From Levilactobacillus lanxiensis (GTDB taxonomy: Bacteria; Bacillota; Bacilli; Lactobacillales; Lactobacillaceae), in NCBI RefSeq assembly GCF_016861655.1, contig NZ_BOLN01000007.1, forward strand, positions 1 through 64,000: 64,000 nt of DNA, in the 5' to 3' direction. The notes under the pieces were generated by a model. That model saw nothing but the letters and a program-made list of their open reading frames with translations, was not told the origin of the DNA and made no database searches. Each line of letters starts with the position of its first letter. Position 1 is the first letter of the stretch. Shown here in pieces: positions 10,240 to 46,283 of this stretch. The position numbers and the translations under genes were made by a program.

Positions 10240-10563
10240 ATGTTTGAAAGTAATCACGCGCGGTATGCCAGTTATGGCACAGTTGCGGCCTTGCCAGGCG
10301 ATATGATCGACGCTGTCTGGCAGATTATTGATCACGACCTCCAGGGGTTATTTCCGTTAGATAATCTGTTAACGTTTAGACTGCATAATAATCAGGGCAA
10401 CACGACCTTTGAGTACGTCCAAACGGATGATGACGATGTCACGTTGCGGGCCGGGTTCGACACGCAGTTTGGCTATACGCCGGAGTTGCCGGAGACGGTT
10501 CTGGCTTACGATGACGGCGACAGCCAAATCATTCTGTTACCATCCGAAACAAACGAACATTAG
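10240..10563 (+). CDS. DUF960 family protein
   Basis: 107-aa small cytosolic protein matching the DUF960 pattern: YASYGTVAALPGDMIDAVWQIIDHDLQGLFPLDNLLTF near the start, then NNQGNTTFEYVQ. Function unknown. ATG 10240 follows GGAGG; a TATAAT lies at 10201-10206. Its TAG stop (10561-10563) abuts the left arm of a structured repeat, which in turn precedes an intrinsic terminator at 10946, so the repeat is probably this gene's 3' UTR. Confidence 0.85.
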   Translation: MFESNHARYASYGTVAALPGDMIDAVWQIIDHDLQGLFPLDNLLTFRLHNNQGNTTFEYVQTDDDDVTLRAGFDTQFGYTPELPETVLAYDDGDSQIILLPSETNEH

Positions 10564-10859
10564 GGCTTGGGCCAAACGAGTCGTTGTCAGCGCCTCCGGG
10601 CTGGTGAAAACTGGGCCTGGTCGCGTCCGTTCCCGGCGGCGCGCTCAAGGCGCCCTGCTGTGGGGCCGGTTCCAGCCGAAGGGCGGGCTTCCGCCTCAAC
10701 TTTGAGCCAAAAAGCGGTCTCAAAGGTTGTCCCGTGCTCTAAGCTGAGAAAAATCGCTCAGCTAAGACCATCGACACAGCCGGGCACCTTGGCTCGCCTC
10801 TGGTCACTCCCACGACCGGCCCATTTTCACCAGCCCTGCGGCTGACACGGGTTTAGCCC
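10563..10859 (+). repeat. Structured repeat, type I, copy A
   Basis: About 297-bp element. Basal stem: CTGGTGAAAACTGGGCC (10601-10617) pairs with GGCCCATTTTCACCAG (10818-10833) apart from one bulged base; outside it, TGTCAGC/GGCTGACA and GGGCT/AGCCC also pair. Inside: CAACTTTGAG pairs with CTCAAAGGTTG and CTAAGCTGAG with CTCAGCTAAG. The conserved single strands CCGTTCCCGGCGG and CTCTGGTCACT are present. It starts at the DUF960 stop codon. No protein is credible inside it. Confidence 0.85.
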
Positions 10860-10945
10860 GCGTAATATTCGTTGATTGTTCGTTGGTTCCGTCAGTTAGT
10901 TGGCGGCTTGGTTAGACTGTCATAAATGTCTATCGAATTTTCATT

Positions 10946-10981
10946 GAATCTGTGGCGTTTTGCTGCAGATTCTATTTTTTT
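10946..10981 (+). terminator. Intrinsic terminator downstream of repeat copy A
   Basis: GAATCTG pairs with CAGATTC, then TATTTTTTT. Its place beyond the repeat implies that a DUF960 transcript includes copy A. Confidence 0.78.
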
Positions 10982-11010
10982 GCCATGCAGATGGCAACTG
11001 TCCGACGACA

Positions 11011-11050
11011 AAAAACACCAACACGTGTCGGCTGGCCGACGGTGCTGGTG
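11011..11050 (-). terminator. Intrinsic terminator
   Basis: On the minus strand ACCAGCACCGTCGGC pairs with CCGACACGTGTTGGT, then six T. It ends the HAD phosphatase gene. Confidence 0.82.
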
Positions 11051-11065
11051 AAGAGTTAAATGACG

Positions 11066-11836
11066 TTATTGAATTAAACCGAAGTGGCGTAGGCCGTGGA
11101 CGATGCCGTCCGTAGTGTTGCTGGTGGTGACGTAGGCTGCCTTGGCTTTTGCTTCGGGGACGCCGTTGCCCATGGAGATGGGGACGTCGACCTCGTCAAA
11201 CATTTGCAGGTCGTTGTAGCCGTCACCAAACGCGTACGTTTTAACGCCCTGTAAGCCGGCCTCGGTGATTAGTTGTTGAATCCCGGATTGCTTGCTGACG
11301 CCGTGGACCATGGTGTCTAGGCAGCGGGGATTGTTCCGAACCAAGTCGAGCTGGTTGGCAAATTTTTCTTGATACGCCTGATCCTTATCGCGGTTAAAGA
11401 CGTTAATGAAGTTAATGTCTTGGTGTTGGTACCAATCGGCGTCGACGACTGGATTCAGTCGTAACAACTGAAAGTTTTCGACCGTGTCAGCGTTGGCCTG
11501 GCTCAACCGAAAGCCTTGGCTGGTGTAGTAGGCCAGGGGGTCACCCTGAGCCTTAGCGAAGGCTGTGATGGCTGCCAGCGTGGGTTGGTCAATGACCGAA
11601 GCTGTCAGTCGCCTGCCTTCGAATTGGACGTAACTCCCGTTGGCACCGACGACGGAATCGATTCCCGTGGCGTCCAACACATATTGAATCTCAAAAATGT
11701 TTCTTCCTGTCGCAATAACTGGTAAAATATGATGTTGTTGCATTTCGTGAATGGCAGCGATACTTGCCGGCAAAACATTCTTGTGATCGTCAAATAACGT
11801 GCTATCCAAGTCAAAAAAGACGATTGCTTGATACAT
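11066..11836 (-). CDS. Cof-type HAD-IIB family phosphatase
   Basis: 256-aa cytosolic haloacid-dehalogenase-type phosphatase; this subfamily dephosphorylates sugar phosphates or flavin/pyridoxal phosphates, but the substrate is not readable from sequence. Motif I is FFDLDSTLFD with nucleophile Asp9 and acid/base Asp11; motif II is the ATGRN segment; motif IV is FGDGYNDLQMFDEV near residue 210, followed by the family's SMGNG. The large C2B cap lies between. ATG 11836 is preceded by AGGAGG at 6 nt. Monocistronic, with its own terminator. Confidence 0.9.
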   Translation of the reverse strand: MYQAIVFFDLDSTLFDDHKNVLPASIAAIHEMQQHHILPVIATGRNIFEIQYVLDATGIDSVVGANGSYVQFEGRRLTASVIDQPTLAAITAFAKAQGDPLAYYTSQGFRLSQANADTVENFQLLRLNPVVDADWYQHQDINFINVFNRDKDQAYQEKFANQLDLVRNNPRCLDTMVHGVSKQSGIQQLITEAGLQGVKTYAFGDGYNDLQMFDEVDVPISMGNGVPEAKAKAAYVTTSNTTDGIVHGLRHFGLIQ

Positions 11837-11989
11837 ATTTAGCCTCCTAAATGCTGATTCTCTACGGTTCTATTATACAGCAAGAGCCAAAGTTAGCGAA
11901 ATGAGGGAAATTTTTTTGCCGCATAAATGTAGTAGTCGCCATTTTTATGTTACACTATATCTTGTATTTTTAATTAAAGAGGGGCTATC

Positions 11990-12637
11990 ATGGTGATAAT
12001 TACAGCTGGAATGATCGGTGTCGGTAAAACGACCCTTACTGGAAAGATTGCGTCGCACTTGGAAACTCAAGCATTTTTTGAACCGGTTGGTGATAACCCG
12101 GTTTTACCACTTTACTACCGGGATCCAAAGCAATACGGATTTTTATTGCAAATTTACTTTTTAAACAAACGGTTTAGCATGATTAAGCGGGCCCTAGCCG
12201 ACGATAACAACGTCCTGGACCGTTCCATCTACGAAGATGCCCTATTTACGCGGGAAAACAACGCGGAAGGCAACATCACGGATACTGAGCTCGAAGTTTA
12301 CTTGAACTTGCTCGACAACATGATGAATGAACTGAGCGAATTGCCAAAGAAGGCCCCAGATCTGTTGGTCTACGCCGACGCTGACTTCGATACGATTTTA
12401 CACCGGATCAAGAAGCGTGGTCGTGACTACGAACAATTCGATGACAACCCAGAGTTGGAATCTTACTACAAGAAGATGTGGACTGCTTACCAAGGCTGGT
12501 TCGCCGACTACGATGTTAGTCCTAAGATCAAAATTGACTTACAAAAATATGACTTGGACGTTCCGGGCAACACGGAATTAGTTCTGGGCCAAATCGATGA
12601 CGCCTTGAAGGAAATTCGGAGCGACGCCACGGTTTAA
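11990..12637 (+). CDS. Deoxynucleoside kinase (deoxyadenosine/deoxyguanosine/deoxycytidine type)
   Basis: 215-aa cytosolic kinase that phosphorylates deoxynucleosides to 5'-monophosphates for salvage, a route important in lactobacilli. P-loop GMIGVGKTT at residues 7-15; DRSIYEDALF carries the DRS motif of the dNK family; KKRGRDYEQ supplies the Arg-rich lid. Length fits the Gram-positive dAK/dGK group, where two such subunits are often encoded in tandem; here there is only one. Start ATG 11990 follows AGAGGGGC; the neighbouring GTG is two codons in and less likely. Confidence 0.9.
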   Translation: MVIITAGMIGVGKTTLTGKIASHLETQAFFEPVGDNPVLPLYYRDPKQYGFLLQIYFLNKRFSMIKRALADDNNVLDRSIYEDALFTRENNAEGNITDTELEVYLNLLDNMMNELSELPKKAPDLLVYADADFDTILHRIKKRGRDYEQFDDNPELESYYKKMWTAYQGWFADYDVSPKIKIDLQKYDLDVPGNTELVLGQIDDALKEIRSDATV

Positions 12638-12648
12638 TGATTAATTGA

Positions 12649-12689
12649 ACGTAATGCCAACTCGTTAGGAGTGGGTGTTGCGTTTTTTT
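12649..12689 (+). terminator. Intrinsic terminator
   Basis: ACGTAATGCCAACTC pairs with GAGTGGGTGTTGCGT (with G:U pairs), then T7. It ends the deoxynucleoside kinase gene. Confidence 0.82.
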
Positions 12690-12711
12690 CGTCGCAAAAA
12701 TTGCGGGTAAT

Positions 12712-12752
12712 AAAAAAATCCAATCATCCGTAATGAAAGGGGATGATTGGAT
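12712..12752 (-). terminator. Intrinsic terminator of the GH65-pgmB transcript
   Basis: On the minus strand ATCCAATCATCC pairs with GGATGATTGGAT, then T7. No other minus-strand gene ends nearby, so it should end the pgmB transcript after repeat copy 2. Confidence 0.85.
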
Positions 12753-12842
12753 CTGAGTTTCTAGTATTAACGTATCACTAGCTGTTTTTGCCGATTGCCA
12801 GAATCCTTGGCAACAAAAACGAGCAAATCTCAATTATAGATA

Positions 12843-13073
12843 GGACTAGCGAAAGGGAACTGGCAAGGTCAGTGTGAGTGACCAGAGGCGGATCAACCTG
12901 ACCAGCTGTGTCGGTGGTCTTAACTGAGTGATTTGCTCAGTTTAGACCATGGGACAACCTTTGAGACCGTTTCTCAGGCTCAAAGTTGAGGTGGAAGACC
13001 GAACTTTGTCTGGAACCGGCCCCACAGCAGGGCAGGTTGAATCCGCCGCCGGGAACGGCAGTGACTTTAGCCC
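12843..13073 (-). repeat. Structured repeat, type I, copy 2
   Basis: Minus-strand copy directly at the pgmB stop. On that strand the left arm GGGCTAAAG contains the pgmB TAA and can pair with CTTTCGCTAGTCC at the far end; the GTGAAAA part of the basal stem is missing. Internal stems are kept: GGCGGATTCAACCTG against CAGGTTGATCCGCC, CAACTTTGAG against CTCAAAGGTTG, and CTAAACTGAG against CTCAGTTAAG. It lies between the pgmB stop and the terminator at 12712, hence probably in the pgmB 3' UTR. Confidence 0.82.
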
Positions 13074-13738
13074 AGCTTCTTTTCAATGTTGGCTAAGGTG
13101 ACTTCTGCCGTGTCTGCGAAGACCATGTCAGCGGCACCCAGTTCAGTTGAATCACCGATACCCAGTGAAACTTCGCCGGCAGCGTTGATGGCTTGGACCC
13201 CAGCAGCGGCGTCTTCAACCCCGATACACTGGTTAGCTGGCAAGTTCAGTAATTCCGCACCCTTGGTGTAGATTTCTGGGTCTGGCTTGCCGTGGGTCAA
13301 GCTGGCTGGGTCAACGATCTTAGGGAAGTAGTCGGCCAGTTCCAATTTGCCCAAGACACGAGGAGCGTTCTTGGAGGCAGAAGCTAAGGAAAGTTGGTAG
13401 CCCTTGGCGCGTAAGTCATCCAGGAAGGCCTTCATGCCGGGTAAAATGTTAGCGGGCGTCATCTTGTCCACTTCGGCCACGTAGTTCGTGTTCTTTTGGG
13501 CGGCCAATTTTTCCTTTTCGGCTTCGGTGTAGTCATTTTCCTTGCCACCGGCCTTTAAAATCATTTCCAGGGAATCCATCCGGCTAATGCCCTTTAAGCC
13601 GTTACCCAGTTCTTCGCTCCAAGCAACGCCCAGTGAGTCGGCGAGTTGGTGCCAAGCGGTCCCGTGCAAGATAGAGGTGTCGGTGATGACACCATCGAGG
13701 TCAAAGACGAATCCTTTAATATCAGCAAACTTTGTCAT
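13067..13738 (-). CDS. pgmB: Beta-phosphoglucomutase
   Basis: 223-aa cytosolic HAD enzyme converting beta-glucose 1-phosphate to glucose 6-phosphate. Motif I GFVFDLDGVITD with nucleophile Asp13 and acid/base Asp15; the helical cap carries the LKGISRMDSLE signature; SLASASKNA is the motif II region, KPDPEIY surrounds the motif III Lys, and GVEDAAAGVQAI the acidic motif IV. It is 13 bp downstream of the GH65 phosphorylase, whose product is beta-glucose 1-phosphate, so the pair forms a disaccharide-degrading operon. ATG 13738 follows AAGGAG. Its stop codon lies within the arm of repeat copy 2. Confidence 0.95.
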   Translation of the reverse strand: MTKFADIKGFVFDLDGVITDTSILHGTAWHQLADSLGVAWSEELGNGLKGISRMDSLEMILKAGGKENDYTEAEKEKLAAQKNTNYVAEVDKMTPANILPGMKAFLDDLRAKGYQLSLASASKNAPRVLGKLELADYFPKIVDPASLTHGKPDPEIYTKGAELLNLPANQCIGVEDAAAGVQAINAAGEVSLGIGDSTELGAADMVFADTAEVTLANIEKKLG

Positions 13739-13751
13739 GAAAAAACACTCC

Positions 13752-16460: not shown

Positions 16461-16602
16461 TTTCAAAGCTAGATCGTCATCCTTTCTGCTAAATGATAGC
16501 GTATTCTTCACTTTCAATCTTAGGCTAACGCTGCGCAATTAGCAATTATTTCCGTCAAAAAATGCGAAATTTGTTAGTCCGGAGAACGCCTAAATGGCGC
16601 TA

Positions 16603-16617
16603 TTGCAACCGATTGCA
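16603..16617. promoter_or_regulatory. Probable cre (CcpA) site upstream of the GH65-pgmB operon
   Basis: TTGCAACCGATTGCA fits the catabolite-responsive element pattern WTGNAANCGNWNNCW. It lies 143 bp upstream of the GH65 start, consistent with glucose repression of disaccharide use. Confidence 0.65.
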
Positions 16618-16668
16618 GTGATTGGACGTGGTTGGGTCGCCGCCCGGTCAAACTGACAAAAATGGCCC

Positions 16669-16706
16669 CAAAAACCGGCTACCCAGAAATTCCAGGTAGT
16701 CGGTTG
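16669..16706 (-). terminator. Intrinsic terminator downstream of repeat copy 3
   Basis: CCGGCTACC pairs with GGTAGTCGG; T-runs exist on both strands. On the minus strand it would end the D-2-hydroxyacid dehydrogenase transcript after repeat copy 3. Confidence 0.75.
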
Positions 16707-16800
16707 GTTTTTGAATGCATTTAATGATGTGTGCGGTCGGTCAGAATCTGGTATTAGGCTTACAACTAATCAGTGGACCAAATGTTTGAACGATTGGTTA

Positions 16801-17054
16801 GTTGCAGGGGCGGCGGAAAAGAGCCAGTGAATGCCATGTTAGTGACCAGAGGCGGATCAAAGTGACCAGCTGTGTCGGTGGTCTTGGCTGGAGTCTTGTT
16901 CCAGCCTAGTCCACGGGACAACCTTTGAGACCGCTTTTTGGCTCAAAGTTGAGGTGGAAGCCTGTTTCACAGGCTGGAACCGGCCCCACAGCAGGGGGCT
17001 TTGAATCCGCCGCCGGGAACGGACACGAATTCAACCAGGTTCATTTTTGGCCGT
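16801..17054 (-). repeat. Structured repeat, type I, copy 3
   Basis: Minus-strand copy starting immediately after the TAG of the D-2-hydroxyacid dehydrogenase. Core sequences CCGTTCCCGGCGG, the CAACTTTGAG/CTCAAAGGTTG hairpin and CTCTGGTCACT are intact; the third hairpin has changed on both sides to a GGCTGGA...TCCAGCC form. The outer arms are degraded (GGCGGAAAAGAGCC facing GGCCAAAAATGAACC). Terminator beyond at 16669. Confidence 0.78.
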
Positions 17055-18014
17055 CTAGTTGACGATGTACAGGGGGTCTTCGCCCTTGTCAACGCGAACC
17101 GCGTTCTTGGCAACAATCGAAGCCATGGCGTCCCGTGCTTCAACCGTGGCGTTCCCCACGTGAGGCGTCAGGATAACGTTCTTCAGGCCCTTGAAGCCAT
17201 CGTCAACGTTAGGTTCTGCTTCGTAAACGTCCAAGGCCGCGCCAGCTAATTCGCCGGTTTGTAAGGCTTCCAGCAGGGCAGCTTCGTCAATGACGGGGCC
17301 CCGTGCGGCGTTGATCAGGTAAGCAGACTTCTTCATCTTCTTAAATTGTTGTGCGCCGATCATGTGATGCGTTTGGTCGTTTAATGGGCAATGTAAGGTG
17401 AGAACATCGCTCTTTTCCAAGACTTCATCCAAGGTGGCGTAGGTGGCGTTCAAACTACCTTCCGTAGCGGCATCTAGGGGATGACGTTGCGTGTAGATAA
17501 TCTTCATGTCAAAGGCCGCCATCCGCTTGGCAACGGCTTGGCCAATTTGACCCATACCAACGATCCCTAAGGTCTTGCCGGCCAGTTCGTGGCCCAGGAA
17601 GAAGAGTGGGGACCACCCGTCGAAGCCCTCGGTGCGCATCAGTTTGTCACCCTCAACCATCCGGTGAGCCAACGTAATAATCAAGCCAGTCGTGACTTCA
17701 GCGGTCGAAACCGTGGAAACCTTGGGCGTGTTGGTGACGGGGATGTTCTTGGAACGGGCGTAGGCGGCGTCAATGTTGTTGAAGCCGGCCCCATAGTTGG
17801 CAATAATCTTTAACTGAGGATCGGCATCGATAACGTCCTTGTCCACCTGAGTAGAAAGGGGCGTGATCAAATAATCCTTACCGACAATCCGCTTTAACAA
17901 CTCGTCCTTCGTGATTAATCCACTGCCAGAATAGCTTTCAACGTCAAGTCCGGCATCGTTTAAAATGTCCAAAGCTGACTGGGGAATTGGTGCAGTTACT
18001 AAAACACTGGTCAT
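17055..18014 (-). CDS. D-2-hydroxyacid dehydrogenase (NAD-dependent, glyoxylate/hydroxypyruvate-reductase-like)
   Basis: 319-aa cytosolic oxidoreductase that reduces 2-oxoacids to D-2-hydroxyacids with NAD(P)H. Substrate domain at both ends; Rossmann domain with GIVGMGQIGQAVAKR around residue 150. Catalytic Arg in INAARGPVIDE, Glu in YEAEP and His in LTPHVGNAT, in the expected order. The profile resembles GyaR-type dehydrogenases more than D-lactate dehydrogenase, but the true 2-oxoacid is unknown. ATG 18014 has AAGGAG 8 nt upstream; GTG 18023 would overlap that site. A cre-like site 41 bp upstream suggests CcpA control. Confidence 0.9.
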   Translation of the reverse strand: MTSVLVTAPIPQSALDILNDAGLDVESYSGSGLITKDELLKRIVGKDYLITPLSTQVDKDVIDADPQLKIIANYGAGFNNIDAAYARSKNIPVTNTPKVSTVSTAEVTTGLIITLAHRMVEGDKLMRTEGFDGWSPLFFLGHELAGKTLGIVGMGQIGQAVAKRMAAFDMKIIYTQRHPLDAATEGSLNATYATLDEVLEKSDVLTLHCPLNDQTHHMIGAQQFKKMKKSAYLINAARGPVIDEAALLEALQTGELAGAALDVYEAEPNVDDGFKGLKNVILTPHVGNATVEARDAMASIVAKNAVRVDKGEDPLYIVN

Positions 18015-18054
18015 GAGTGTCACTCCTTCAGTAAAATTTCATTTCACACGTCCA

Positions 18055-18069
18055 TTGTAACCGTTTTCA
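18055..18069. promoter_or_regulatory. Probable cre (CcpA) site
   Basis: TTGTAACCGTTTTCA fits WTGNAANCGNWNNCW and lies 41 bp before the dehydrogenase start, overlapping its likely promoter. Confidence 0.65.
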
Positions 18070-18164
18070 TAAGAGAAAGCATCCTCTGCTGAAATTTTTT
18101 TCGAAAAACGCCGCCAAACGTGGTAAGCTGTGAAAAGTAACTGGACCTGAAAGGGGAAGCGACT

Positions 18165-18371
18165 GTGAAAGTTTTAGCAATTATGTTGATCACCACCCTG
18201 ACCGCCGGATTAGTGGGCGGCACCATCTGGTTAATGTTGACACTGGCACTGGCCGCCTGGCTGGAGGTGCTGATTGGCGCCGTGGGTTTGGTGTTGGCGA
18301 CGATGATTAATTTGGCCATCTTCTGGTTTCTCTGGCCCCACCCAGCCCCCAGCGAAGACGACGAGGACTAA
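18165..18371 (+). CDS. Small two-TM membrane protein
   Basis: 68-aa protein with two hydrophobic segments (residues about 4-30 and 34-57) and an acidic tail ending SEDDED. No family recognised. GTG 18165 follows GGGGAAG at about 6 nt. Its last codons and TAA stop form one arm of the outer stem of repeat copy D, so the repeat is fused to the end of the reading frame. The gene could be real but depends on ribosome site and hydrophobicity pattern alone. Confidence 0.6.
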   Translation: MKVLAIMLITTLTAGLVGGTIWLMLTLALAAWLEVLIGAVGLVLATMINLAIFWFLWPHPAPSEDDED

Positions 18372-18666
18372 CTAGTTTGTCCCTCCGGACTGGTGAAAAT
18401 GAGCGCTGCTACGTTGGCGTGTAAGAGCGTTCCCGACGGCGGATTCAAAGTACCCGGCTATGGGGCCGGTTCCAGCCTTAGAAGCGGGCTTCCACCTCAA
18501 CTTTGAGCCTGAGGTACGGTCTCAAAGGTTGTCCCGTGGGCTAGGCTGGAAAATGACCCCAGCCAAGGCCACCGACACAGCCGGGCACTTTGATCCGCCT
18601 CTGGTCACTGACACGGTCCGTGCTGGTGCCTTTTCACCAGTTCTGCGGCTGACACTGGTTAGCTCC
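18365..18666 (+). repeat. Structured repeat, type I, copy D
   Basis: 302-bp copy. Outer stem GGACTAAC (18365-18372, containing the stop codon of the upstream small gene) pairs with GTTAGCTCC (18658-18666) with one bulge. Basal CTGGTGAAAA (18390-18399) pairs with TTTTCACCAG (18631-18640). Internal stems GGCGGATTCAAAGT against ACTTTGATCCGCC, CCCGGCT against AGCCGGG, and CAACTTTGAG against CTCAAAGGTTG are all formed. Confidence 0.85.
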
Positions 18667-18877
18667 AGTCGGTATGCCGCTGGTCTTCGATGGAAGGTAG
18701 GGGTGGGAGCCGTTCTGGATATTTGGTTATTTTCCTTCCTAATTGTGTTGCGTGATACTCAGGCACATTAGTGAGTGGACGAATCGACACTAGTTTAAGT
18801 TGATTGTTGTAAGTATGGGTGACTAACTAGATTACCACAAAACATATGTAGAAGAATCAGACAAGTAAAGGTCGATT

Positions 18878-19093
18878 GACCAAATTTCCGCTGTGTAAGC
18901 CGATAGGTCGAGAAAAATGGACTCAGCCGGGGGATTTTCTGAGAGGAACTCTCAGAAAATGGCGACTTTGAGACTCGTTTCTCAGAGGCTCAAAGCGAGT
19001 CCGGAGACCGATCTTTGGCTCCGGGCGTCCTGCCCCCAGCGTTCCAGACCATTTTTCTCGGCCGGCAAGGCGCGGCCAACGAGAAATTTGGTC
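18878..19093 (-). repeat. Structured repeat, type II, copy 5
   Basis: 216-bp element with perfect outer arms GACCAAATTTC (18878-18888) and GAAATTTGGTC (19083-19093) and perfect inner arms CGAGAAAAATGG (18909-18920) and CCATTTTTCTCG (19049-19060). Internal hairpins read on the minus strand: CCGGAG/CTCCGG, CTTTGAG/CTCAAAG, ATTTTCTGAGAG/CTCTCAGAAAAT, with GCTGGGGG pairing CCCCCGGC. It lacks the CGTTCCCGGCGG core of type I. Not adjacent to a same-strand gene end. Confidence 0.82.
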
Positions 19094-19137
19094 AAAAAAA
19101 GACCATTACGATAAGTCGCAATGGCCAAAGAGTAAGG

Positions 19138-19202
19138 TTACAACATAATTGGGGGATTATGTTGTAAAAAATTTCATCTACTTTGGGGGAGTAAAATGAA
19201 AT
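19138..19202 (+). other. Two tandem hairpins with GGGGG loops
   Basis: TTACAACATAAT (19138-19149) pairs perfectly with ATTATGTTGTAA (19156-19167) around a TGGGGG loop. Directly after, ATTTCAT...ATGAAAT (19170-19202) forms a second hairpin whose loop also holds TTTGGGGGAG. Weaker hairpins follow at about 19219-19265 (GAGG/CCTC, GTAAGT/ACTTAC). They lie in the 320-bp gap before the CPBP protease gene; no T-run follows the first. Could be a leader structure or a small RNA. Confidence 0.5.
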
Positions 19203-19419
19203 CTGTCTGTTGAATGAGGACAGAAGCCTCACGCGTAAGTAAGGTAAATCCAAACTTACCCGCAACTCTATAGTAGCGCATTCCTCAGAAAATTGCCATT
19301 AAAATATAAATATTTTGCTAAATTGATTGGCTAACGGTTGCGGACAACGCTTTGTGGTAGGCCACTGCCGATTACCCAGTTAGTTAGGCGAATCAACAAA
19401 AGTGAGAGGATGGTTTTAC

Positions 19420-20100: not shown

Positions 20101-20123
20101 ATTGCGTAAGCTAACGTAAAATT

Positions 20124-20176
20124 AAAGCCGTTCTCGTGACGAAGCTACTTGCTTTGTCGACGGGGACGGCTTTTTT
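20124..20176 (+). terminator. Intrinsic terminator
   Basis: AAAGCCGTTCTCGTGAC pairs with GTCGACGGGGACGGCTTT (with bulges), then TTTT; it ends the CPBP gene. Confidence 0.82.
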
Positions 20177-20207
20177 GGTGCATCTACAGATGGGGTTCTT
20201 CAGAGAT

Positions 20208-20248: not shown

Positions 20249-20251
20249 CTG

Positions 20252-25476: not shown

Positions 25477-27168
25477 ATGGACTATAAACAGAAGGTTATT
25501 ACGGCATTGGCAAACGCTTTAGACGGCCAATTGTCGGCGGAAGAGATTGCGTTGAAGCTTGAAAAGCCCAAGACGTCTGATCTTGGGGACATGGCGTTTC
25601 CCACGTTTGCACTAGCTAAGCTCCTGCACCGGGCACCGCAACAGATTGCCCAAGATTTGGCCGAAAAGATTGATTCAAGTGACTTTGAACGTGTCGTGGT
25701 TGCCGGTCCATACTTGAATTTCTTCTTTGATAAGGGCCAATACAGTGCCGCAACGCTGGAAAATGTGTTGAATGCCGGCGCTGCTTACGGCCAAAACGAT
25801 GATGGTAACGGTGGGAAGGTGCCCATCGACATGTCCTCACCAAACATTGCCAAGCCAATGTCCATGGGGCATTTACGGTCGACCGTGATTGGGAACTCGA
25901 TTGCTGAGATTCTGACCAAGAACGGCTATGCACCCATCAAGGACAATCACTTAGGTGACTGGGGGACCCAATTTGGGAAGCTCATCACGGCCTACAAGTT
26001 GTGGGGGAACGAAGCCGACGTTAAGGCTGACCCCATTAACAAATTAGTTGAATATTATGTTCGCTTCCATAAAGAGGACGTGGACAAGCCTGAACTGGAC
26101 GATGAAGCCCGTGAATGGTTCAGAAAGCTCGAAAATGGTGACCCTGAAGCGCACCGTCTTTGGAAATGGTTCCGGGAAGCTTCCTTGGAAGAGTTCAACG
26201 ACGTTTACAAGAAGTTGGGTGTGACGTTTGATACCTACAACGGGGAAGCCTTCTACAACGATAAGCTGGAAGAGGTCGTTCAAATCTTAAAGGACAAGCA
26301 CCTGTTGGTTGAATCACAAGGTGCCCAAGTCGTTGACCTCAGCAAGTATAACCTGAACCCAGCGCTGATTCTGAAGAGTGATGGGGCGTCCCTATACATC
26401 ACCCGGGATATTGCGACTGCACTGTACCGTGACCGCGAATATGCACCAGCCAAGAACTTATACGTTGTTGGCTCGGAACAAACGTATTACTTCCAGCAGT
26501 TAAAGGCCGTTCTGTTAGAAATGGGCCTGAAGTCAGCGCCGAACCTGCAACACGTGCCATTTGGGCTGATCACCGTTGATGGGAAGAAGTTGTCTACCCG
26601 TTCCGGCCGAATCATTCTGTTGGCCAAGGTTTTGGAAGAATCCGTTGAGCTGGCTGAAAAGGAAATCAACGAGAAGAACCCTGATCTGGCAAACAAGTCG
26701 GCGGTCGCCCAACAAGTTGGGGTCGGCGCCATCGTCTTTGGTGATTTGAAGAATGAACGGACCAACAACATTGACTTCGTTCTGGCAGACCAACTGAAGT
26801 TCGAAGGGGAAACCGGTCCTTACGTGCAATACGCCCATGCCCGGGCCGAAAGCATTCTGCGGAAAGCTAAGGCAACTACGATCACGGCGGATGCCAACCA
26901 GGTCACCGATCCCGAAGCTTGGGATACGATCAAGGCCCTGGCAGACTTCCCAGCCATGGTCAAGATGGCCTGTGACGAGTTAGAGCCTTCCGTCATTGCC
27001 AAGTACGCCATTCGCTTATCCAAGACCTTCAACAAGTACTACGCGCACTCCAAGATTCTCGCGGATGATGCCGGCTTACCAGCCCGGTTGGCTTTGGTTA
27101 AGTCCGTCTCAATCGTCGTCAAGGAAAGCCTGCGCTTGTTGGGTGTCAAGGCACCGGACGAGATGTAG
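25477..27168 (+). CDS. argS: Arginyl-tRNA synthetase, copy 1
   Basis: 563-aa class I synthetase charging tRNA-Arg. N-terminal Add-1 domain; the HIGH-like motif appears as SSPNIAKPMSMGHLRSTVIG, with Ser in place of the first His as seems usual in related Firmicutes; KLSTRSG takes the KMSKS position; C-terminal DALR anticodon domain with FNKYYAHSKIL. ATG 25477 follows AGGGAGGA. Its leader shows no T-box, unlike copy 2 at 51870, with which most residues agree by eye. It has its own terminator and lies directly before the arginine deiminase operon, so it may serve arginine-rich or catabolic conditions. Confidence 0.95.
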   Translation: MDYKQKVITALANALDGQLSAEEIALKLEKPKTSDLGDMAFPTFALAKLLHRAPQQIAQDLAEKIDSSDFERVVVAGPYLNFFFDKGQYSAATLENVLNAGAAYGQNDDGNGGKVPIDMSSPNIAKPMSMGHLRSTVIGNSIAEILTKNGYAPIKDNHLGDWGTQFGKLITAYKLWGNEADVKADPINKLVEYYVRFHKEDVDKPELDDEAREWFRKLENGDPEAHRLWKWFREASLEEFNDVYKKLGVTFDTYNGEAFYNDKLEEVVQILKDKHLLVESQGAQVVDLSKYNLNPALILKSDGASLYITRDIATALYRDREYAPAKNLYVVGSEQTYYFQQLKAVLLEMGLKSAPNLQHVPFGLITVDGKKLSTRSGRIILLAKVLEESVELAEKEINEKNPDLANKSAVAQQVGVGAIVFGDLKNERTNNIDFVLADQLKFEGETGPYVQYAHARAESILRKAKATTITADANQVTDPEAWDTIKALADFPAMVKMACDELEPSVIAKYAIRLSKTFNKYYAHSKILADDAGLPARLALVKSVSIVVKESLRLLGVKAPDEM

Positions 27169-36879: not shown

Positions 36880-37046
36880 CCTGAATGCCTCCTAAACATG
36901 AATAAATTACACTTCTAAGTATACAGTTTTTACCCGGCGGTACCAGTGATTTCGGCGATTTTTCCAAAATTTAATTTTTCTTTTCTACTACTATAATTCA
37001 TTAAAAATGTTATTTAAAAATGAAGCCGTTTGGGTGGTAAATAATT

Positions 37047-37115
37047 TTGCGTTTACCCCCGTTTTTTGCTACAATGTGGCTAATCATTATGCATAAAAAC
37101 CGGTAGTTTATACAT
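37047..37115 (+). promoter_or_regulatory. argR1 promoter and ARG-box-like operator
   Basis: TTGCGT, 17-bp spacer, TACAAT (37070-37075). Just downstream, ATGCATAAA (37089-37097) and TTTATACAT (37107-37115) form an imperfect inverted pair of ARG-box type, placed where ArgR could block elongation: probable autoregulation. Confidence 0.6.
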
Positions 37116-37160
37116 TTATTTCTAGTGCAAGGTAACGTTTATACAATGGGGGCGGATTTA

Positions 37161-37634: not shown

Positions 37635-37737
37635 GTGTGAGGGTTGTGTGACAGCAATTGGTAAGTGGCTGAACCAACGGAATTCCGATGATAATGGTAT
37701 AGTGAAATCAGAGTCCATTTTCAGAAAGGAGTTTTCC

Positions 37738-40242: not shown

Positions 40243-40247
40243 ACCGC

Positions 40248-40289
40248 AAAAAAGCGCATCGCCAGAACTCTTGGCGGTGCGCTTATTTT
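40248..40289. terminator. Bidirectional terminator
   Basis: AAGCGCATCGCCA pairs with TGGCGGTGCGCTT; T-rich on both strands, serving the UvrA-like gene and the convergent small gene. Confidence 0.82.
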
Positions 40290-40295
40290 AGCAAA

Positions 40296-40532
40296 TTAAA
40301 GTTTTTTTGAAACGGTGTAACGTTTAGTCGTTGACGGTTCTGTTCGATCAGTCAACTGTTGTTCCGCCAAAAAGATATCGAACGATGGCTCCCCGTGTTC
40401 GCTCTTGACGACCAGGACGTGACCGGACTCATCATGCCGTTCCTGGTAAATCTGGGCCGTTTGCACGGCTTCGTGATAATCGTGAAAATTACCAATTGAA
40501 TCTCCTGGGTTGAAAAGGACTACTTCATCCAT
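40296..40532 (-). CDS. Hypothetical protein, 78 aa
   Basis: Small soluble protein of unknown family, starting MDEVVLFNPGDSIGNFHDYHEAVQTAQIYQ and ending with a basic tail TTKRYTVSKKL. AAAGGAATG lies before ATG 40532. Shares the terminator with the convergent UvrA-like gene. 68 bp downstream of the pepD stop on the same strand, so co-transcription with pepD is possible. Confidence 0.72.
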   Translation of the reverse strand: MDEVVLFNPGDSIGNFHDYHEAVQTAQIYQERHDESGHVLVVKSEHGEPSFDIFLAEQQLTDRTEPSTTKRYTVSKKL

Positions 40533-40600
40533 CTAATCATTCCTTTCGAGGCTAGCTGCTAATTTCATTATAGCGCATTCCCTCTGAAAACGATACCAAT

Positions 40601-42010
40601 TTACAAGCCGGCATCCATGGTAAAGGTCAGGGCTGAGAGGTCGGCGTTGGCCTGGACTAATTTGCCGGTCTGGACTTGAATGGCTTGGGCCAAGGCATCG
40701 GCCGTTTCGGCGTTGAACTGACCGAGCGAGGCGGCTGAGACGGTGGCCTGTTGGTCGCCTAAATGTAAGCGTTGGTAGCCAGCCGCTTGCGTTTCGTTAA
40801 GGAAGTTGGCAAGTAATTTCCGGTTTTGGTGGTAGTGGGCCTCACTCAAAACATCGAGCAACTTGTTGGCCCAGTAAGGGTTCTCCCCATTGTAGGCGGC
40901 GTTGTCCTCGCCATAGGCCAGACCCACTTGATCACCCTGTGCATAGAAAGGTAGGTAGGGACTGAAGGCGGGGTTGCCGAGACACTGCCAAACGACACCG
41001 GCCAGGACGGGCGCCACGTTGCGGCGAATCTGCAGAATGTGTGAGTTCTGGGTCCGTGACAGGCCGACCGCTCGGAATTGGTGCTTGGCCTCGTCACTAC
41101 CGGAGCCCAACGGATCAAAGGGCGTTTCTTGGTAGTGGGAACCGAGAAATTCTTCAACGGCACCGACGCTGATCTTACGTTCGGCGTGCCGGATGAAGGG
41201 GAGATCTTGACTGCTGGGGTTTTCCAGGGCACTCGGGGTGAACAGCTTGTGGCCGTACCAGACCCGCGGTGTGTTGTAGTGGGCGTCGTCAATCGTTTGC
41301 GTGCCAAAGATGTGGCGGGAGTTGAAGCGATTGCCGTCGGGGTTCAAGCGATTTTCCTGAACAAATTGGCGGATACCAGGGGAGGTCAAGAAATTCTTGG
41401 TGTCAATGAAGTCGACGTCCTCGATGGCCAATTGGTTGGCCACCACGGCGTAGGCGTCATCGGGGATGCGCTGGGCGACCCAGTGATGTCCACTGACGAT
41501 TTCCATGTACCAAACTTCTTCGGCATCACTGAAGAGGACCCCGTTGGTTTCGGCGGCCCCGTTTTCCGTGACCAGTTGGCCCAACCGTTGGATACCGGCC
41601 TGAGCGGAGTCGACGTAAGGCAGGACGACCGTTAACATGGCGTCTTCAGCGATACCGTCCGTGACCAGTGGATCAATGCCTAAGACGCGGCTATTGGTAT
41701 AGGCGCTTTCAGTCGCGCTCATGGCCACGTTTTGATTGTTGATGCCGCTCTCTTCAAAGTAGCCCTCGCTAGGATCAGTGTCGGGCATGGCTGTGTAGTG
41801 GTAAGCCTGTTCCGGCAACGTCGTGGTAAACGCGTTACCTTTCGAAACAAAGTGGCGGTCGCGGTCCTCGTTAGCGGGATGGACGATGGCCCGTTTTGGC
41901 CAGATGGCCACGAAGTTATCTTCGTTGCGGGCAATCAGTGTGCTACCATCCAAGGTGGCGAGTTTACCGGCTAAAAATGAGGTGCAAGCCTGATGGGTAT
42001 GACGGTTCAT
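40601..42010 (-). CDS. pepD: C69 family dipeptidase PepD
   Basis: 469-aa cytosolic Ntn-hydrolase-type dipeptidase of peptidase family C69, which supplies amino acids from dipeptides. The catalytic Cys is Cys9 in QACTSFLAGK; LDGSTLIARNEDN follows, the family's D-x-S-x-x-x-x-R-x-x-D block. AEDAMLTVVLPYVDSAQAGIQRLG and EVWYMEIVSGHHWVAQRIPDD are further C69 signatures. ATG 42010 follows GAGGAGG; starts further upstream would displace Cys9 and lack a ribosome site. Its 5' side faces the repeat-rich 1.1-kb gap. Confidence 0.93.
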   Translation of the reverse strand: MNRHTHQACTSFLAGKLATLDGSTLIARNEDNFVAIWPKRAIVHPANEDRDRHFVSKGNAFTTTLPEQAYHYTAMPDTDPSEGYFEESGINNQNVAMSATESAYTNSRVLGIDPLVTDGIAEDAMLTVVLPYVDSAQAGIQRLGQLVTENGAAETNGVLFSDAEEVWYMEIVSGHHWVAQRIPDDAYAVVANQLAIEDVDFIDTKNFLTSPGIRQFVQENRLNPDGNRFNSRHIFGTQTIDDAHYNTPRVWYGHKLFTPSALENPSSQDLPFIRHAERKISVGAVEEFLGSHYQETPFDPLGSGSDEAKHQFRAVGLSRTQNSHILQIRRNVAPVLAGVVWQCLGNPAFSPYLPFYAQGDQVGLAYGEDNAAYNGENPYWANKLLDVLSEAHYHQNRKLLANFLNETQAAGYQRLHLGDQQATVSAASLGQFNAETADALAQAIQVQTGKLVQANADLSALTFTMDAGL

Positions 42011-42154
42011 AATAATTCCTCCTCTTAGAGTATCGTTAAGCACACTATAACACACGCGTGGCGCGGGATAAACCGCTATCATTGTGAAAGAGATGGGGCA
42101 TTTCGCCAAGAGTGAGGCGTCAGCCACCGGTAACCGCGGATAGTTTGATAGAAT

Positions 42155-42372
42155 GGACTTAACATTGCCGTTGGTTTCGCCTCCGGGCTGGTGAAAACTG
42201 AGCCGGGACGCTGTGGGCGCGCGCCTGGAGCCAAAGAGCGGTCTCCAGACTTACTTTGAGCCTCTGAGATACGAGTCTCAAAGATAGCAGTTGCCTAAGC
42301 GGGAAACCCGCTAAGGTAACTCCCACGGCTGAGCTCATTTTCACCAGCCCTGCGGCTGACACTGGTTTAGCC
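42155..42372 (+). repeat. Structured repeat, type II, copy E
   Basis: Basal stem CTGGTGAAAACTGAGC (42188-42203) pairs with GCTCATTTTCACCAG (42333-42347), one bulge. Internal type II hairpins: CTGGAG/CTCCAG, CTTTGAG/CTCAAAG, CTAAGCGGG/CCCGCTAAG, and GCTGTGGG pairing CCCACGGC. Compared with copy 5 the bases differ but the pairs hold. The outermost left arm GGACTTAAC (42155-42163) pairs with the far arm of the next copy, not with its own. Confidence 0.82.
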
Positions 42373-42413
42373 CATGATCAAACGGATTATCAGCGGTTGC
42401 TGGTGGCTGACAG
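42373..42413. repeat. Direct repeat after copy E (partner at 42667-42706)
   Basis: ATGATCAAACGGATTATCA plus GGTGGCTGACAG recurs after copy F as ATGATCAAACGGGTTATCA plus GGTGGCTGACAG, 294 bp away. The pair shows that an element together with its flank was duplicated in tandem. Confidence 0.75.
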
Positions 42414-42426
42414 TGGGGGTAATCGA

Positions 42427-42666
42427 TCCGTTCCCGGCGGCAGATTCAAAGTGCCCGGCTATGGGGTCGGTTACAGCCAAAGGACGGGCTTCCACCTCAA
42501 CTTTGCGCCTGAGAAGCGGTCGCAAAGGTTGTCCCATGGGCTAGGCTGGAAAAGAACTCCAGCCAAGACCATCGACACAGCCGGGGTGGTTGATCTGCCT
42601 CTGGTCACTAACACTGTCCTCGCTGGCTCATTTTCACCAGCCCTGCGGCTGACACTGGTTAAGTCC
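42427..42666 (+). repeat. Structured repeat, type I, copy F (left arm missing)
   Basis: Begins at the CCGTTCCCGGCGG core and ends TTTTCACCAG...GTTAAGTCC. Internal stems intact: CAAAGTGCCCGGCT against AGCCGGG plus TTG, CAACTTTGCG against CGCAAAGGTTG (paired change of A:T to C:G relative to other copies), GGCTGGA/TCCAGCC. Its right outer arm GTTAAGTCC (42658-42666) pairs perfectly with GGACTTAAC at 42155, left of copy E. Confidence 0.8.
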
Positions 42667-42877
42667 ATGATCAAACGGGTTATCATTGTTTGTCGGTGGC
42701 TGACAGGTTGGCAGTGGAGTGGTTGGGTAATTTGTCCGCGACGACTTATTCTCGCTAGATTTGCAGGTAACACACAGCGGGGCACGGTATTAGTAACTTT
42801 CGGTAATTTGTAATTGTGAGAATTAGCAATAATGCAGCATGTAAAGTATGGTGTCATTCCAGACCAGACGGATTGGC

Positions 42878-43128
42878 ATTGGTCTAGTGAAAAATGGTGA
42901 TCAATGTCAGTGACCAGAGGCGGGCCAAGGTGGCCAGCTGTGTCGGTGCTCTTAGCTGAGTGATTTTCTCAGGTTAGAGCACGGGACGACCTTGGAAACT
43001 CGCGGTTTTAGCGAGGTTTCAAGGCGAGGCGGAGGACCGCTCCACAGGCCGGAGCCGTTCCCAACAGCAGGGCACCTTGAAGCCCGCCGCCGGGAACGGA
43101 ATCATCCGCCATTTTTCACTAGACCAAT
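42878..43128 (-). repeat. Structured repeat, type I, copy G
   Basis: 251-bp copy with perfect 20-bp inverted ends, ATTGGTCTAGTGAAAAATGG (42878-42897) and its complement (43109-43128). The arm sequence differs from other copies while pairing stays complete. Internal stems on the minus strand: GGCGGGC against GGCCCGCC and CAAGGTG against CACCTTG, both compensated relative to other copies. It lies antisense, 24 bp before the FLP start codon. Confidence 0.88.
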
Positions 43129-43152
43129 AGAAAAAATTAAGGAGATGCCGAA

Positions 43153-43851
43153 ATGGTACATGAACATCATCATGAATCAATCGAACAAGAACTGGAATGT
43201 GTTTCCCAGGTGCCCATTTTTCAGCGCTTGTCGGCGGATCAACTGACGTCGGTGGCCCAGGTGACCCGGCCCGTCATGGCCAAAAAGGGCGGGACGGTAT
43301 TTAGTACGGGGGAAGTTTCACAAACCCTGTACATCGTCAACGTGGGTCAGGTGCGGCTGTACCATTTGGGCGAGGACGGGCGCGAACAGGTCTTGCGGGT
43401 GCTGAATCCGGGAGACTTCATTGGTGAAATCGCGCTGTTTACGGATGAAATTCACAGTTCATACGCCGAAGCCACCAAGGACAGCGAACTGTGTACCATT
43501 TCGCGAGTCTCTCTGACGGCCTTGATCAAGCAGATGCCACCGCTGTCCATGGCCTTGCTGGGAGCGCTGGCGGACCGGCTGAAGACGGCGGAACGGCAGG
43601 CAACCTTGCTGGCCATTCCGGACGCGCTGCCACGGCTAGCCGGCTATTTACAAGAAATTAGCGGGCACCAATCCGGCGTCATTGATTTACCGATGAGCAA
43701 GCAGGACCTGGCCGCCTACCTGGGTATGACGCCAGAGTCCTTGAGCCGCAAGCTGCGACAGCTGGTCAAGGACGGCGTGATCGAGACAATTGGTCGTCGT
43801 CAGGTCAAAGTGATCAACACGGATCAATTGGCTGAAGTGGCGCCAGAGTAA
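43153..43851 (+). CDS. flp: FNR-like protein FLP (Crp/Fnr family)
   Basis: 232-aa regulator. The N-terminal region has a His-rich start and Cys16 in ELECVSQVPIFQRL; the effector domain has LRVLNPGDFIGEIALF; Cys114 is in SELCTISR; the HTH is MSKQDLAAYLGMTPESLSRKLRQLVKDG. Two cysteines in these places match the redox disulfide pair of Lactobacillus casei FLP rather than the Fe-S cluster of FNR. Such proteins respond to oxidation. AAGGAGATG precedes ATG 43153. Repeat copy G occupies its 5' region, and asnB follows after 146 bp. Confidence 0.9.
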   Translation: MVHEHHHESIEQELECVSQVPIFQRLSADQLTSVAQVTRPVMAKKGGTVFSTGEVSQTLYIVNVGQVRLYHLGEDGREQVLRVLNPGDFIGEIALFTDEIHSSYAEATKDSELCTISRVSLTALIKQMPPLSMALLGALADRLKTAERQATLLAIPDALPRLAGYLQEISGHQSGVIDLPMSKQDLAAYLGMTPESLSRKLRQLVKDGVIETIGRRQVKVINTDQLAEVAPE

Positions 43852-43997
43852 CCGGAGTTTTAGCTATCCATTAAGAATCCTTAATATTATGGTATTCCCG
43901 AAATAAATTTGCTAAAATGATGGGTGTTGTGTTTCATTTAATTTTTAATGAACGACTAAATTAGGCGATAAGAATAAAGGAAAAAGGGGATACGCAC

Positions 43998-45881
43998 ATG
44001 TGTGGATTCGTTGGCTATGTGAATCAAAAAGATGTTCCGACTAATACCATCAACAGTATGGCAGATCGGATTAAGCACCGGGGGCCGGATGACGAGGCTT
44101 TCTTCCACGACGAACAAGCCGTGATGGGGTTCCGCCGGCTGTCGATCATCGACTTAGCCCATGGTAAACAACCCATGTATAACCGGGATCAAACCAAGGT
44201 TTTGACCTTTAACGGTGAAATTTATAACTATCAAGAAATTCGGGCCGACTTACAAAAGTTGGGTTACGAATTCCAAACTGACGTGGACTCAGAAGTCTTG
44301 ATCCACGGGTACGATGCTTGGGGTCCTAAGCTGTTGGACCGCCTGCGGGGGATGTACGCCTTCGCCATTTATGACAAGACGAAGAACGAAGTCTTTGGCG
44401 CACGGGACCACTTTGGTATCAAGCCAATGTACTACTACGATGACGGTGAGACCTTCCTGTGGGCCTCTGAAATTAAGGCGTTTCTCGAACACCCTAACTT
44501 CAAGAAGGAATTCAACGAAGCCCTCTTACCCATCCATTTGAGTTTTGAATTTATCCCATCACGGGACACGATGTTCAAGAACGTCTACAAGGTATTGCCT
44601 GGGCAATACTTCATTCACCATGCCAATGGCGAGACGGAAACGCACCGTTACTACAAGTTTAACTATGATCACATCGACAACAGTCAGACGGTTGAAGAGG
44701 ATGCCAAGAAGATTCGCGGTATCGTTGATGAATCCGTTAAGACCCACATGATTGCCGACGTTGAAGTTGGGAGCTTCCTGTCCAGTGGGATTGATTCTTC
44801 CTACGTGTTGAACGAAGCTTCTAAATTAAAGCCAATCCAATCCTTCTCCTTAGGGTTCAAGAACTCTAAGTACAGTGAATTGAGCTGGTCAACCGAATTT
44901 GCCAAGGAAATCAAGCAAAAGAACACGCCACTCTACATGACGGGTGACGATTACTTTGACATTTTGCCAACGATTATGTACTACATGGATGAACCTTTAT
45001 CCAACCCATCTGCGATGCAACTGTACTACCTGTCCAAGGGGACGCGTGAATCCGTTAAGGTGGCGCTGTCTGGTGAAGGGGCCGACGAATTCTTCGGTGG
45101 CTACAACACTTACTTGGAAGCTATTCCATTCGAACGTTACCAGAAGTGGGTGCCTAAGGGCATTCGGAAGATGCTGGGTGGCATCGCTGAAAAATTCCCT
45201 CGCTTCCATGGTCGGCGGTTCCTGGTCCGTGGGGCACAGCCATTGAGCGAACGCTACTACCGGGTCAACTACGTCTTCGATTACCATGACCGGAACAAGA
45301 TTCTGAAGAACCCAAGTCTGAACCAAGATGCTGGGGCTTACACCAAGCACTTCTTCGATGACGTTAAGGGCCTGGATGAAATGACGCAGATGCAGTACTT
45401 TGATATCAACACCTGGTTACCTTATGACATTCTGCACAAGGCTGACCGGATGAGTATGGCGAACTCACTTGAAGTGCGGACACCATTGGTTGATAAGGAA
45501 GTTGCGAAGTTTGCCGCAACCATGCCAGTGAAGACGCGGATCCATACGGATGAGACCAAGGTTTCTCTGCGGGCCGCTGCCGAGGCTGAATTGCCAGAAC
45601 GGGTGGCTAAGAAGGAAAAGATGGGCTTCCCATCTCCAATCGCTACCTGGATCAAGACGGAACCTTACAAGTCACGGATCATCGAAGCATTTAACTCCGA
45701 CGTGGCCCAAAAGTTCTTTAACACGGACGCCCTGATGGATATCTTACACGAACACATCAACGGTAAGTCCAGCATGCAAAAGATCTTCACCATTTACACG
45801 TTTATCTTGTGGTACGAAGTTTACTTCCCAGAAGACACGACGGCTAAGACGGTGGACCTGGTTCACCGCACGCAAATTTAA
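43998..45881 (+). CDS. asnB: Asparagine synthase (glutamine-hydrolysing), AsnB/AsnH type
   Basis: 627-aa enzyme with an N-terminal glutaminase domain starting at catalytic Cys2 (MCGFVGYV) and a C-terminal synthetase domain whose ATP loop is SSGIDSS near residue 263. The textbook reaction amidates aspartate. Here it is followed by D-aspartate ligase and aspartate racemase genes, the set used in L. lactis and E. faecium for the D-Asp cross-bridge, so it may act as AsnH, which amidates that D-Asp to D-Asn. ATG 43998 is preceded by AAAAGGGGAT. A weak hairpin and repeat copy H follow. Confidence 0.92.
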   Translation: MCGFVGYVNQKDVPTNTINSMADRIKHRGPDDEAFFHDEQAVMGFRRLSIIDLAHGKQPMYNRDQTKVLTFNGEIYNYQEIRADLQKLGYEFQTDVDSEVLIHGYDAWGPKLLDRLRGMYAFAIYDKTKNEVFGARDHFGIKPMYYYDDGETFLWASEIKAFLEHPNFKKEFNEALLPIHLSFEFIPSRDTMFKNVYKVLPGQYFIHHANGETETHRYYKFNYDHIDNSQTVEEDAKKIRGIVDESVKTHMIADVEVGSFLSSGIDSSYVLNEASKLKPIQSFSLGFKNSKYSELSWSTEFAKEIKQKNTPLYMTGDDYFDILPTIMYYMDEPLSNPSAMQLYYLSKGTRESVKVALSGEGADEFFGGYNTYLEAIPFERYQKWVPKGIRKMLGGIAEKFPRFHGRRFLVRGAQPLSERYYRVNYVFDYHDRNKILKNPSLNQDAGAYTKHFFDDVKGLDEMTQMQYFDINTWLPYDILHKADRMSMANSLEVRTPLVDKEVAKFAATMPVKTRIHTDETKVSLRAAAEAELPERVAKKEKMGFPSPIATWIKTEPYKSRIIEAFNSDVAQKFFNTDALMDILHEHINGKSSMQKIFTIYTFILWYEVYFPEDTTAKTVDLVHRTQI

Positions 45882-45916
45882 TTTAGAACGGCATAGCTTT
45901 TTGGCTGGCCGATAAC

Positions 45917-45958
45917 GATCAAGGTTGCTATTGGACTCGTCCGCTAACAACCTTGATT
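45917..45958 (+). terminator. Hairpin after asnB
   Basis: GATCAAGGTTG pairs with CAACCTTGATT; only TGTGTTT follows, so termination may be weak and readthrough into repeat copy H is plausible. Confidence 0.5.
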
Positions 45959-45977
45959 GTGTTTACTTAGCTTTTTT

Positions 45978-46283
45978 CCGGTCCGGCAACTCGTTTGCCC
46001 CGGTCTGGTGAAAATGGACCGGAACGCTGTGGGCAGTTGCCGTTTCCGGCGGCGGATTCAAGATACCCTGCTGTGGGGTCGGTTCCAGCCGAAGGGCAGG
46101 CTTCCACCTCAACTTTGAGCCTGAAAAGCGGTCTCAAAGGTTGCCCCATGCTCTAAGCTGAGAAAAATCTCTCAGCTAAGACCATCGACACAGCTGGTCA
46201 TCTTGATCCGCCTCTGGTCACTGAGACTGACCACGTTTGGTCCATTTTCACCAGCCCTGCGGCTGACACTAGTTGCGGACCGG
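45978..46283 (+). repeat. Structured repeat, type I, copy H
   Basis: 306-bp, the most complete copy. Outer arms CCGGTCCGGCAACT (45978-45991) and AGTTGCGGACCGG (46271-46283) pair with one bulge; basal CTGGTGAAAATGGACC (46005-46020) pairs perfectly with GGTCCATTTTCACCAG (46239-46254). Internal: GGCGGATTCAAGAT against ATCTTGATCCGCC, CTGCTGTG with CACAGC, CAACTTTGAG/CTCAAAGGTTG, CTAAGCTGAG/CTCAGCTAAG. Between asnB and the D-aspartate ligase gene, same strand. Confidence 0.88.

Follow-up and report, generated by a model that had tools for sequence, protein, structure and literature searches.

A dispersed family of structured repeats

The stretch of Levilactobacillus lanxiensis DNA analyzed here (assembly GCF_016861655.1, contig NZ_BOLN01000007.1, positions 1-64,000 of the forward strand; hereafter the window, from genome G000) is 64,000 nt long and carries nine copies of a structured repeat lying between its genes, which had been reported as an unrecognized family in a first-pass annotation made from the letters alone. 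All nine are present in the sequence (Table 1), the stem variants quoted for them can be read there, and R1, a covariance model of the 143-nt core, recovers nine of nine. R1 was built with a hand-written structure from A1, a MAFFT alignment of 45 of 59 extracted cores, of which seven are window copies and the others were taken from other parts of the genome and from relatives (other genomes are also given G numbers). Since copies 5 and 6 are absent from A1, their R1 matches (18919, 38 bits, E 9e-8; 42203, 56 bits, E 3e-12) count as independent hits. The motif GCCTCTGGTCACT, with at most one mismatch, occurs seven times in comparison to an expected 0.04, and seven occurrences were reached in none of 100 shuffles.

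The annotation had expected very many copies per genome and had suggested scanning the genome and its relatives with a covariance model, and the scan bore this out. We counted 40 copies in 184 kb of contig C7 of G000 and at least 150 in the genome (150 of 1177 candidates were scored, and all matched); scaling from the 184 kb gives a total of ~660, with a range of 426-783 depending on the stretch used. Within the genus, R1 matched 34 of 35 genomes, counting G000 itself and with G021 as the exception; it also matched 76 of 301 genomes and 11 of 40 genera of the family, and five of 198 sampled genomes of the order, one of them outside the family with a single match (E 1.8e-6). All three counts are lower bounds, based on at most 91, 10, and 16 scored candidates per genome, respectively. 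The model also matches contig L050, titled uncultured Lactobacillus sp., and a possible, very divergent relative beyond the reach of R1 was seen by eye in L151 (G028) at ~5110-5250. A plasmid- or phage-borne element was considered and dropped, as three blastn probes against plasmids and one against phages gave no match.

Neither the window nor 13 loci matched Rfam, and a search of 42000-43200 at E values up to 5 gave one match, sR53, with an E value of 3 and a score far under its gathering score. With no Rfam model above its gathering threshold, a known RNA family was ruled out. No description of the family was found in the literature searched, which did not cover most subscription journals. 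The repeats are a real, very large, and apparently undescribed family, in keeping with their having gone unrecognized before.

Table 1. The nine copies of the repeat in the window and the state of their places in related genomes
Copy	Positions	Strand	Core	Type and neighboring genes	Orthologous place in relatives
1	10563..10865	+	10650-10787	Full-length type, long arms; starts at the stop codon that ends a + open reading frame (ORF) at 10563	No match in G020, G030, G003
2	12843..13073	-	12898-13035	Arm enters the 3' end of a beta-phosphoglucomutase gene (13067-13738, -)	One divergent copy in G020; two copies in G003
3	16801..17047	-	16862-16999	Directly past the stop codon of a 2-hydroxyacid dehydrogenase gene (17055-18023, -)	No match in G020, G030, G003
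4	18365..18668	+	18450-18588	Start of the copy coincides with the stop codon of a small + ORF (by eye)	Empty in G020 and G030; two copies in G003
5	18878..19080	-	18919-19047	Divergent A-type; forms a -> <- pair with copy 4	
6	42155..42367	+	42203-42336	Divergent A-type	One copy fewer in this region of G026
7	42427..42660	+	42451-42588	Tandem with copy 6	
8	42878..43130	-	42930-43075	Ends just before the ribosome-binding site (by eye) of a CRP/FNR-like gene at 43153	Divergent site 42127-43153: copies between its two genes in 3 of 14 relatives
9	45978..46283	+	46063-46201	306-nt fold; minimum free energy -160.8 kcal/mol, z -9.7	R1 match in 0 of 12 relatives with the stretch fetched (six of them read in sequence)

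Fold and covariation of the core

In the core (~140 nt) a stem, P1 (GCTGTG/CACAGC), encloses a three-way junction formed by P2 (GGG/CCC), P3 (around AGCC..GGCT), and P4 (CGACTTTGAG/CTCAAAGGTCG), plus a hairpin, P5 (ATGCTCTAAGCTGA/TCAGCTAAGACCAT), which has a conserved A.A mismatch inside. That pairing is kept while the stems covary, as proposed in the first-pass annotation, was supported by both alignments that we used. In A1, 92.1% of the 1872 cells at the 43 pairs show standard pairing, compared to 32-49% when the partners are slid, and 28 of the 43 pairs have changed on both sides, compared to 16.8 in shuffles and 6-9 with slid partners. Of five measures applied to A1, four were reached by 0/500 shuffles and the weakest, the number of further pair types, by 7/500. 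The second alignment, A2, comprises the best 150 of 172 R1 matches (147 distinct) and was fitted to the structure of the model, so that, unlike A1, it leans towards that structure. On a FastTree tree of the 147 distinct sequences, Fitch parsimony placed 258 branches with double changes from one Watson-Crick pair to another at the 42 true pairs, compared to a mean of 2.8 and a maximum of 11 in 300 re-paired column controls. Recombination between copies disturbs counts of this kind, and the comparison with wrong partners serves as the control for it: in P3-P5, wrong partners within the same helix co-change about one-fifth as often as true partners, and block exchange alone is therefore no explanation of the covariation. 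The folds are also stable, with z-scores for copy 9 of -9.7 on the R1 strand and -8.7 on its complement, and means over 40 copies of -6.0 and -6.8, respectively.

The further claim that simple copying cannot give such a pattern was too strong because, according to the available part of PMC8794818, one DNA template-switch event can both create and re-match hairpin stems, with compensatory changes as the outcome. At columns 110/176, 24 changes are shared on the same branch, out of 26 and 25 at the two columns, and there are few one-sided intermediates. Simultaneous paired change of this kind fits strong selection, but it fits template switching too. Among the 147 sequences several unpaired residues are near-invariant (CC/GT in P4, 97-99%; the P5 A, 100%; T60, 99%; C22, 97%), and the hairpin loops on the R1 strand are 46% A and 9% T. 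Neither the fixed unpaired residues nor the one-sided A-richness is obviously predicted by template switching alone, and it is because of these two features that we consider the core the better case for a selected fold.

Empty and filled sites

Comparison of orthologous places found both empty and filled sites, in either direction. The sites at 10650, 16862, 18450 + 18919, 78592, and 135955 + 136363 carry copies in G000 but none in G020. The reverse also occurs: a stretch of 94 nt between aligned blocks in G000 corresponds to a copy in G020 (L161:6505-6658). In G003, the sites at 18.4-19.0 kb and 12.9 kb have two copies each. Among the sister species G000, G012, and G026, 16 of 18 comparable clusters have copies in all three (four more clusters were not comparable), and the differences are mostly in copy number within a cluster. 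The insert at copy 9 extends, by eye, ~100 nt beyond the arms. The suggestion that the repeat is a mobile non-coding element, similar to REPs or to miniature inverted-repeat transposable elements (MITEs), thus stands insofar as it looks mobile; it is not a classic MITE, as its arms are not uniform and no target duplication was recognized at the sites read.

Cores may also be exchanged between copies. At site 181290 the core of G012 is only 78% identical to that of G000, whereas the 60-nt arms next to it are 100% and 93% identical, a pattern that suggests conversion between copies.

The block at 11066-12637, which encodes a HAD hydrolase and a deoxynucleoside kinase, is flanked in G000 by inverted repeat copies, and its order in G000, G020, G003, and G030 is inverted in G028, G016, and G013. 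Recombination between copies 1 and 2 was considered as the route of this inversion, but the G000 order recurs in G020, G003, and G030, and the event was therefore left unplaced.

Position and orientation relative to genes

Genes were predicted with a home-made hexamer caller trained on G000, which may miss small genes. Identical cores and copies not flanked by two predicted genes were dropped, which left 135 of the 150 rows for the analysis of position; none of these 135 copies overlaps a predicted gene. The 5' end of the R1 strand faces the nearer gene in 123 of the 135 (80 of 86 in G000 and 43 of 49 elsewhere). In G000 the near edge of these copies is as often a gene start as a gene end (40 each), and in the other species it is a gene start in 10 and a gene end in 33. 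Similarly, in the 12 intergenic regions with several copies in the 184 kb of contig C7, + copies always precede - copies; both orientations are present in 11 of the regions and the remaining one is ++. Selection against terminators or against direct repeats was considered as a cause and rejected by reasoning, as neither covers gene starts together with gene ends. The gene-edge rule itself is testable.

Copy-specific arms

The arms that flank the core pair with each other, and in many cases the pairing is specific to the copy. In 92 copies the median flank pairing score was 67.3 within a copy, 42.7 between copies, and 36.9 after shuffling (p ~1e-24; duplicate rows were kept, and the control used flanks more than once). 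For 47 of the 92, own-copy pairing lies above the 95th percentile of the mismatched control. Many full-length copies share the imperfect arms GGGCTAAAC...GGGCTGGTGAAAAT / ATTTTCACCAGCCC...GTTTAGCCC, while L010, L014, L026, and copies 2, 3, and 8 have arms that are unrelated and yet paired. A frequent layout, judged by eye, is an A-run, a GC stem, the core, a GC stem, and a T-run (AAAATGGGCC...GGCCCATTTT), and in some copies (copy 2, L010, and L026; also by eye) the arms take in the last codons and the stop codon of the neighboring gene.

Arms can differ between species at one place. At site 158273, the own-arm scores are 81 in G000 and 93 in G026, although the arms of the two are only 28% and 27% identical; the two copies may be separate insertions at one place. 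At site 148367 the arms likewise differ in a sister species with pairing kept, more weakly than at 158273. We consider that the copy-specific arms were probably made by template switching.

Other features of the window

Immediately upstream of copy 9, a hairpin-forming stretch at 45910-45975 precedes the gene at 46434 and is near-identical in six other species, in which the DNA next to it aligns at only roughly 79-86%. Based on this conservation it is likely a conserved leader or binding element. The gene itself (418 aa) matched neither Pfam nor NCBIfam at the limits used. A conserved block at 19090-19170 (GACCATTACGATAAGTCGCAATGGCC...) lies upstream of a CPBP-family gene at 19402 and is kept in G030, G028, G016, and G020. 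The window also has a SAM-III (SMK box) riboswitch at 7170-7289, before an open frame at 7287, and two arginyl-tRNA synthetase genes within its 64 kb (25477-27168 and 51472-53562), the second with a frame that is longer at the N end. Outside the window, dense internal direct repeats whose extent varies among the sister species lie at ~92-98 kb on contig C7 of G000.

Interpretation and alternatives

High copy number, extragenic position, a stable fold, and variable presence at orthologous places are the features of interspersed repeats of the broad REP/BOX/ERIC class, and all four were found here. The explanation that we favor, with somewhat better than even confidence, is that the nine loci are non-coding, non-autonomous structured repeats similar to REP, BOX, and ERIC elements, with a selected multibranched fold, template-switched arms, and exchanged cores. 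The core would act as a folded single strand, either as RNA in untranslated regions (UTRs) or as single-stranded DNA during spread, and a putative protein would recognize it in this form. The element would spread in trans or through copying between loci, and ectopic conversion would exchange cores among the copies. Template switching would both make the arms and re-match them, placing an inverted copy of a gene edge on the opposite flank of the core.

Several observations weigh against this explanation. The arms of 45 of the 92 copies stay within the 95th percentile of mismatched arms, and at 158273 in G012 the 5' arm is kept (95%) while the 3' arm is not (27%), with a pairing score of 21. The near-invariant share (at least 95% one base) is alike in junction or internal-loop columns (7/22) and in paired columns (23/82), and is just 1/13 in hairpin-loop columns. 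Conversion is read from patchy divergence, and no target duplication was recognized at the sites read, in relatives that are too distant for exact junctions. Y1_Tnp, the sole transposase family searched for, matched two open frames, of 140 and 145 aa. Lastly, the indicators of which strand folds (wobble counts, folding energies, and loop composition) disagree. Core mismatches (A.C 99 vs. G.U 55 over 36 pairs) point to the complement, which, corrected for composition, is also the better-folding strand in 33 of 40 copies, whereas arm mismatches are reversed (A.C 755 vs. G.U 1172) and favor R1, the strand to which the A-rich hairpin loops point as well.

Known families offer partial parallels, compared here by their published descriptions. 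The pneumococcus belongs to the same bacterial order as the lactobacilli and its BOX elements have a modular boxA-boxB-boxC design, while REPs are short simple hairpins whose cognate RAYT gene is flanked by two repeats. What sets our family apart from the REP/BOX-type repeats that it resembles is a multibranched core that covaries, arms specific to the copy, and an orientation tied to gene edges. Like the pneumococcal BOX, RUP, and SPRITE elements, for which slow transposition and some expression have been reported, it consists of small, interspersed, structured chromosomal repeats (PMC3049150); unlike BOX as described, it has a densely covarying multibranched core, basal stems specific to the copy, and a strict gene-edge orientation, and it occurs in 11 genera of one family. 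With REP/BIME elements and their RAYT proteins it has in common high-copy extragenic palindromes, often alternating or inverted and proposed to be moved in trans (PMC2817692), but it differs in having a multibranched core of ~140 nt plus long arms; the genome has two Y1_Tnp hits. ERIC/YPAL and other stem-loop families are likewise foldable repeats of roughly 100-170 bp, among which the L. johnsonii family Lac-1, as described, lies within coding regions, unlike the extragenic family reported here (PMC2267715). Lacto-usp, Lacto-rpoB, and Lacto-int are similar in being candidate structured motifs of Lactobacillales (PMC2864571); our element matches no Rfam model, and Lacto-int is described there without an Rfam number.

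The most credible alternative, which we nevertheless regard as unlikely, is a host-used cis-acting RNA, that is, UTR elements that stabilize, attenuate, or terminate mRNAs and are selected at each gene. The position of the copies close to gene ends or starts, inside likely UTRs, agrees with it, as do the fixed unpaired residues, the A-rich loops, and the 16 of 18 comparable clusters common to the sister species. It is opposed by the empty sites in congeneric species, by the apparent lack of a common theme among 15 distinct window proteins examined, and by the terminator-like hairpin that is still present downstream at 10650 and 78592. Moreover, it makes no difference to the mismatch spectrum if R1 is the mRNA-sense strand or its complement is (65 copies at 3' edges compared to 39 at 5' edges), and selection in the mRNA sense was rejected on this basis.

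Slightly less credible is a mainly mutational origin, in which quasi-palindromes were perfected and extended by template switching in replication and the fold has no selected function. The mechanism has been described (PMC8794818), nearly all changes in several pairs are two-sided and on the same branch, as at columns 110/176, arms specific to the copy contain gene ends, and junction columns are not clearly more near-invariant than paired ones. On its own, it does not predict the fixed unpaired CC/GT in P4 or the P5 A, nor loops that are A-rich on one strand and a single architecture across 11 genera.

We find it very unlikely that the repeat is a classic MITE, with a DDE transposase acting in trans on its terminal inverted repeats and with varied arms that are decayed ends. 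The imperfect arms common to many full-length copies would fit, but not every copy has the same terminal inverted repeats, and at the sites read no target duplication was recognized. Decay should also break pairing, so that the unrelated but paired arms and the pairing specific to each copy count against such an origin. Equally low credence is given to a bacterial element resembling short interspersed nuclear elements (SINEs), in which the 3' end of a structured RNA or single strand would fold back on the core and prime copying of the adjoining gene edge. If true, a new copy would carry arms complementary to the gene it abuts, and this would jointly explain the gene-edge arms, an orientation held whatever the direction of transcription, and the conserved multibranched core, along with the lack of uniform ends and of a recognized target duplication. 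Least probable of all is that the element is, or inserts in, an intrinsic terminator and that its basal stem serves the neighboring gene as terminator stem, as suggested by the A-run to T-run layout of many arms and by terminator-like hairpins near 16862 in relatives, since a terminator-like hairpin remains downstream of the element at 10650 and 78592 and 40 of the 80 G000 copies with the R1 5' side to the nearer gene sit at gene starts.

The Lactobacillaceae are a family important in food fermentation, and in L. lanxiensis these repeats may reach roughly 5% of the genome, based on ~660 copies of ~250 nt. If transcribed, the copies would put large folds into many UTRs. With hundreds of naturally occurring replicates of a single fold, the family also allows a direct test of whether compensatory changes arise through selection or through template switching, the question posed in PMC8794818.

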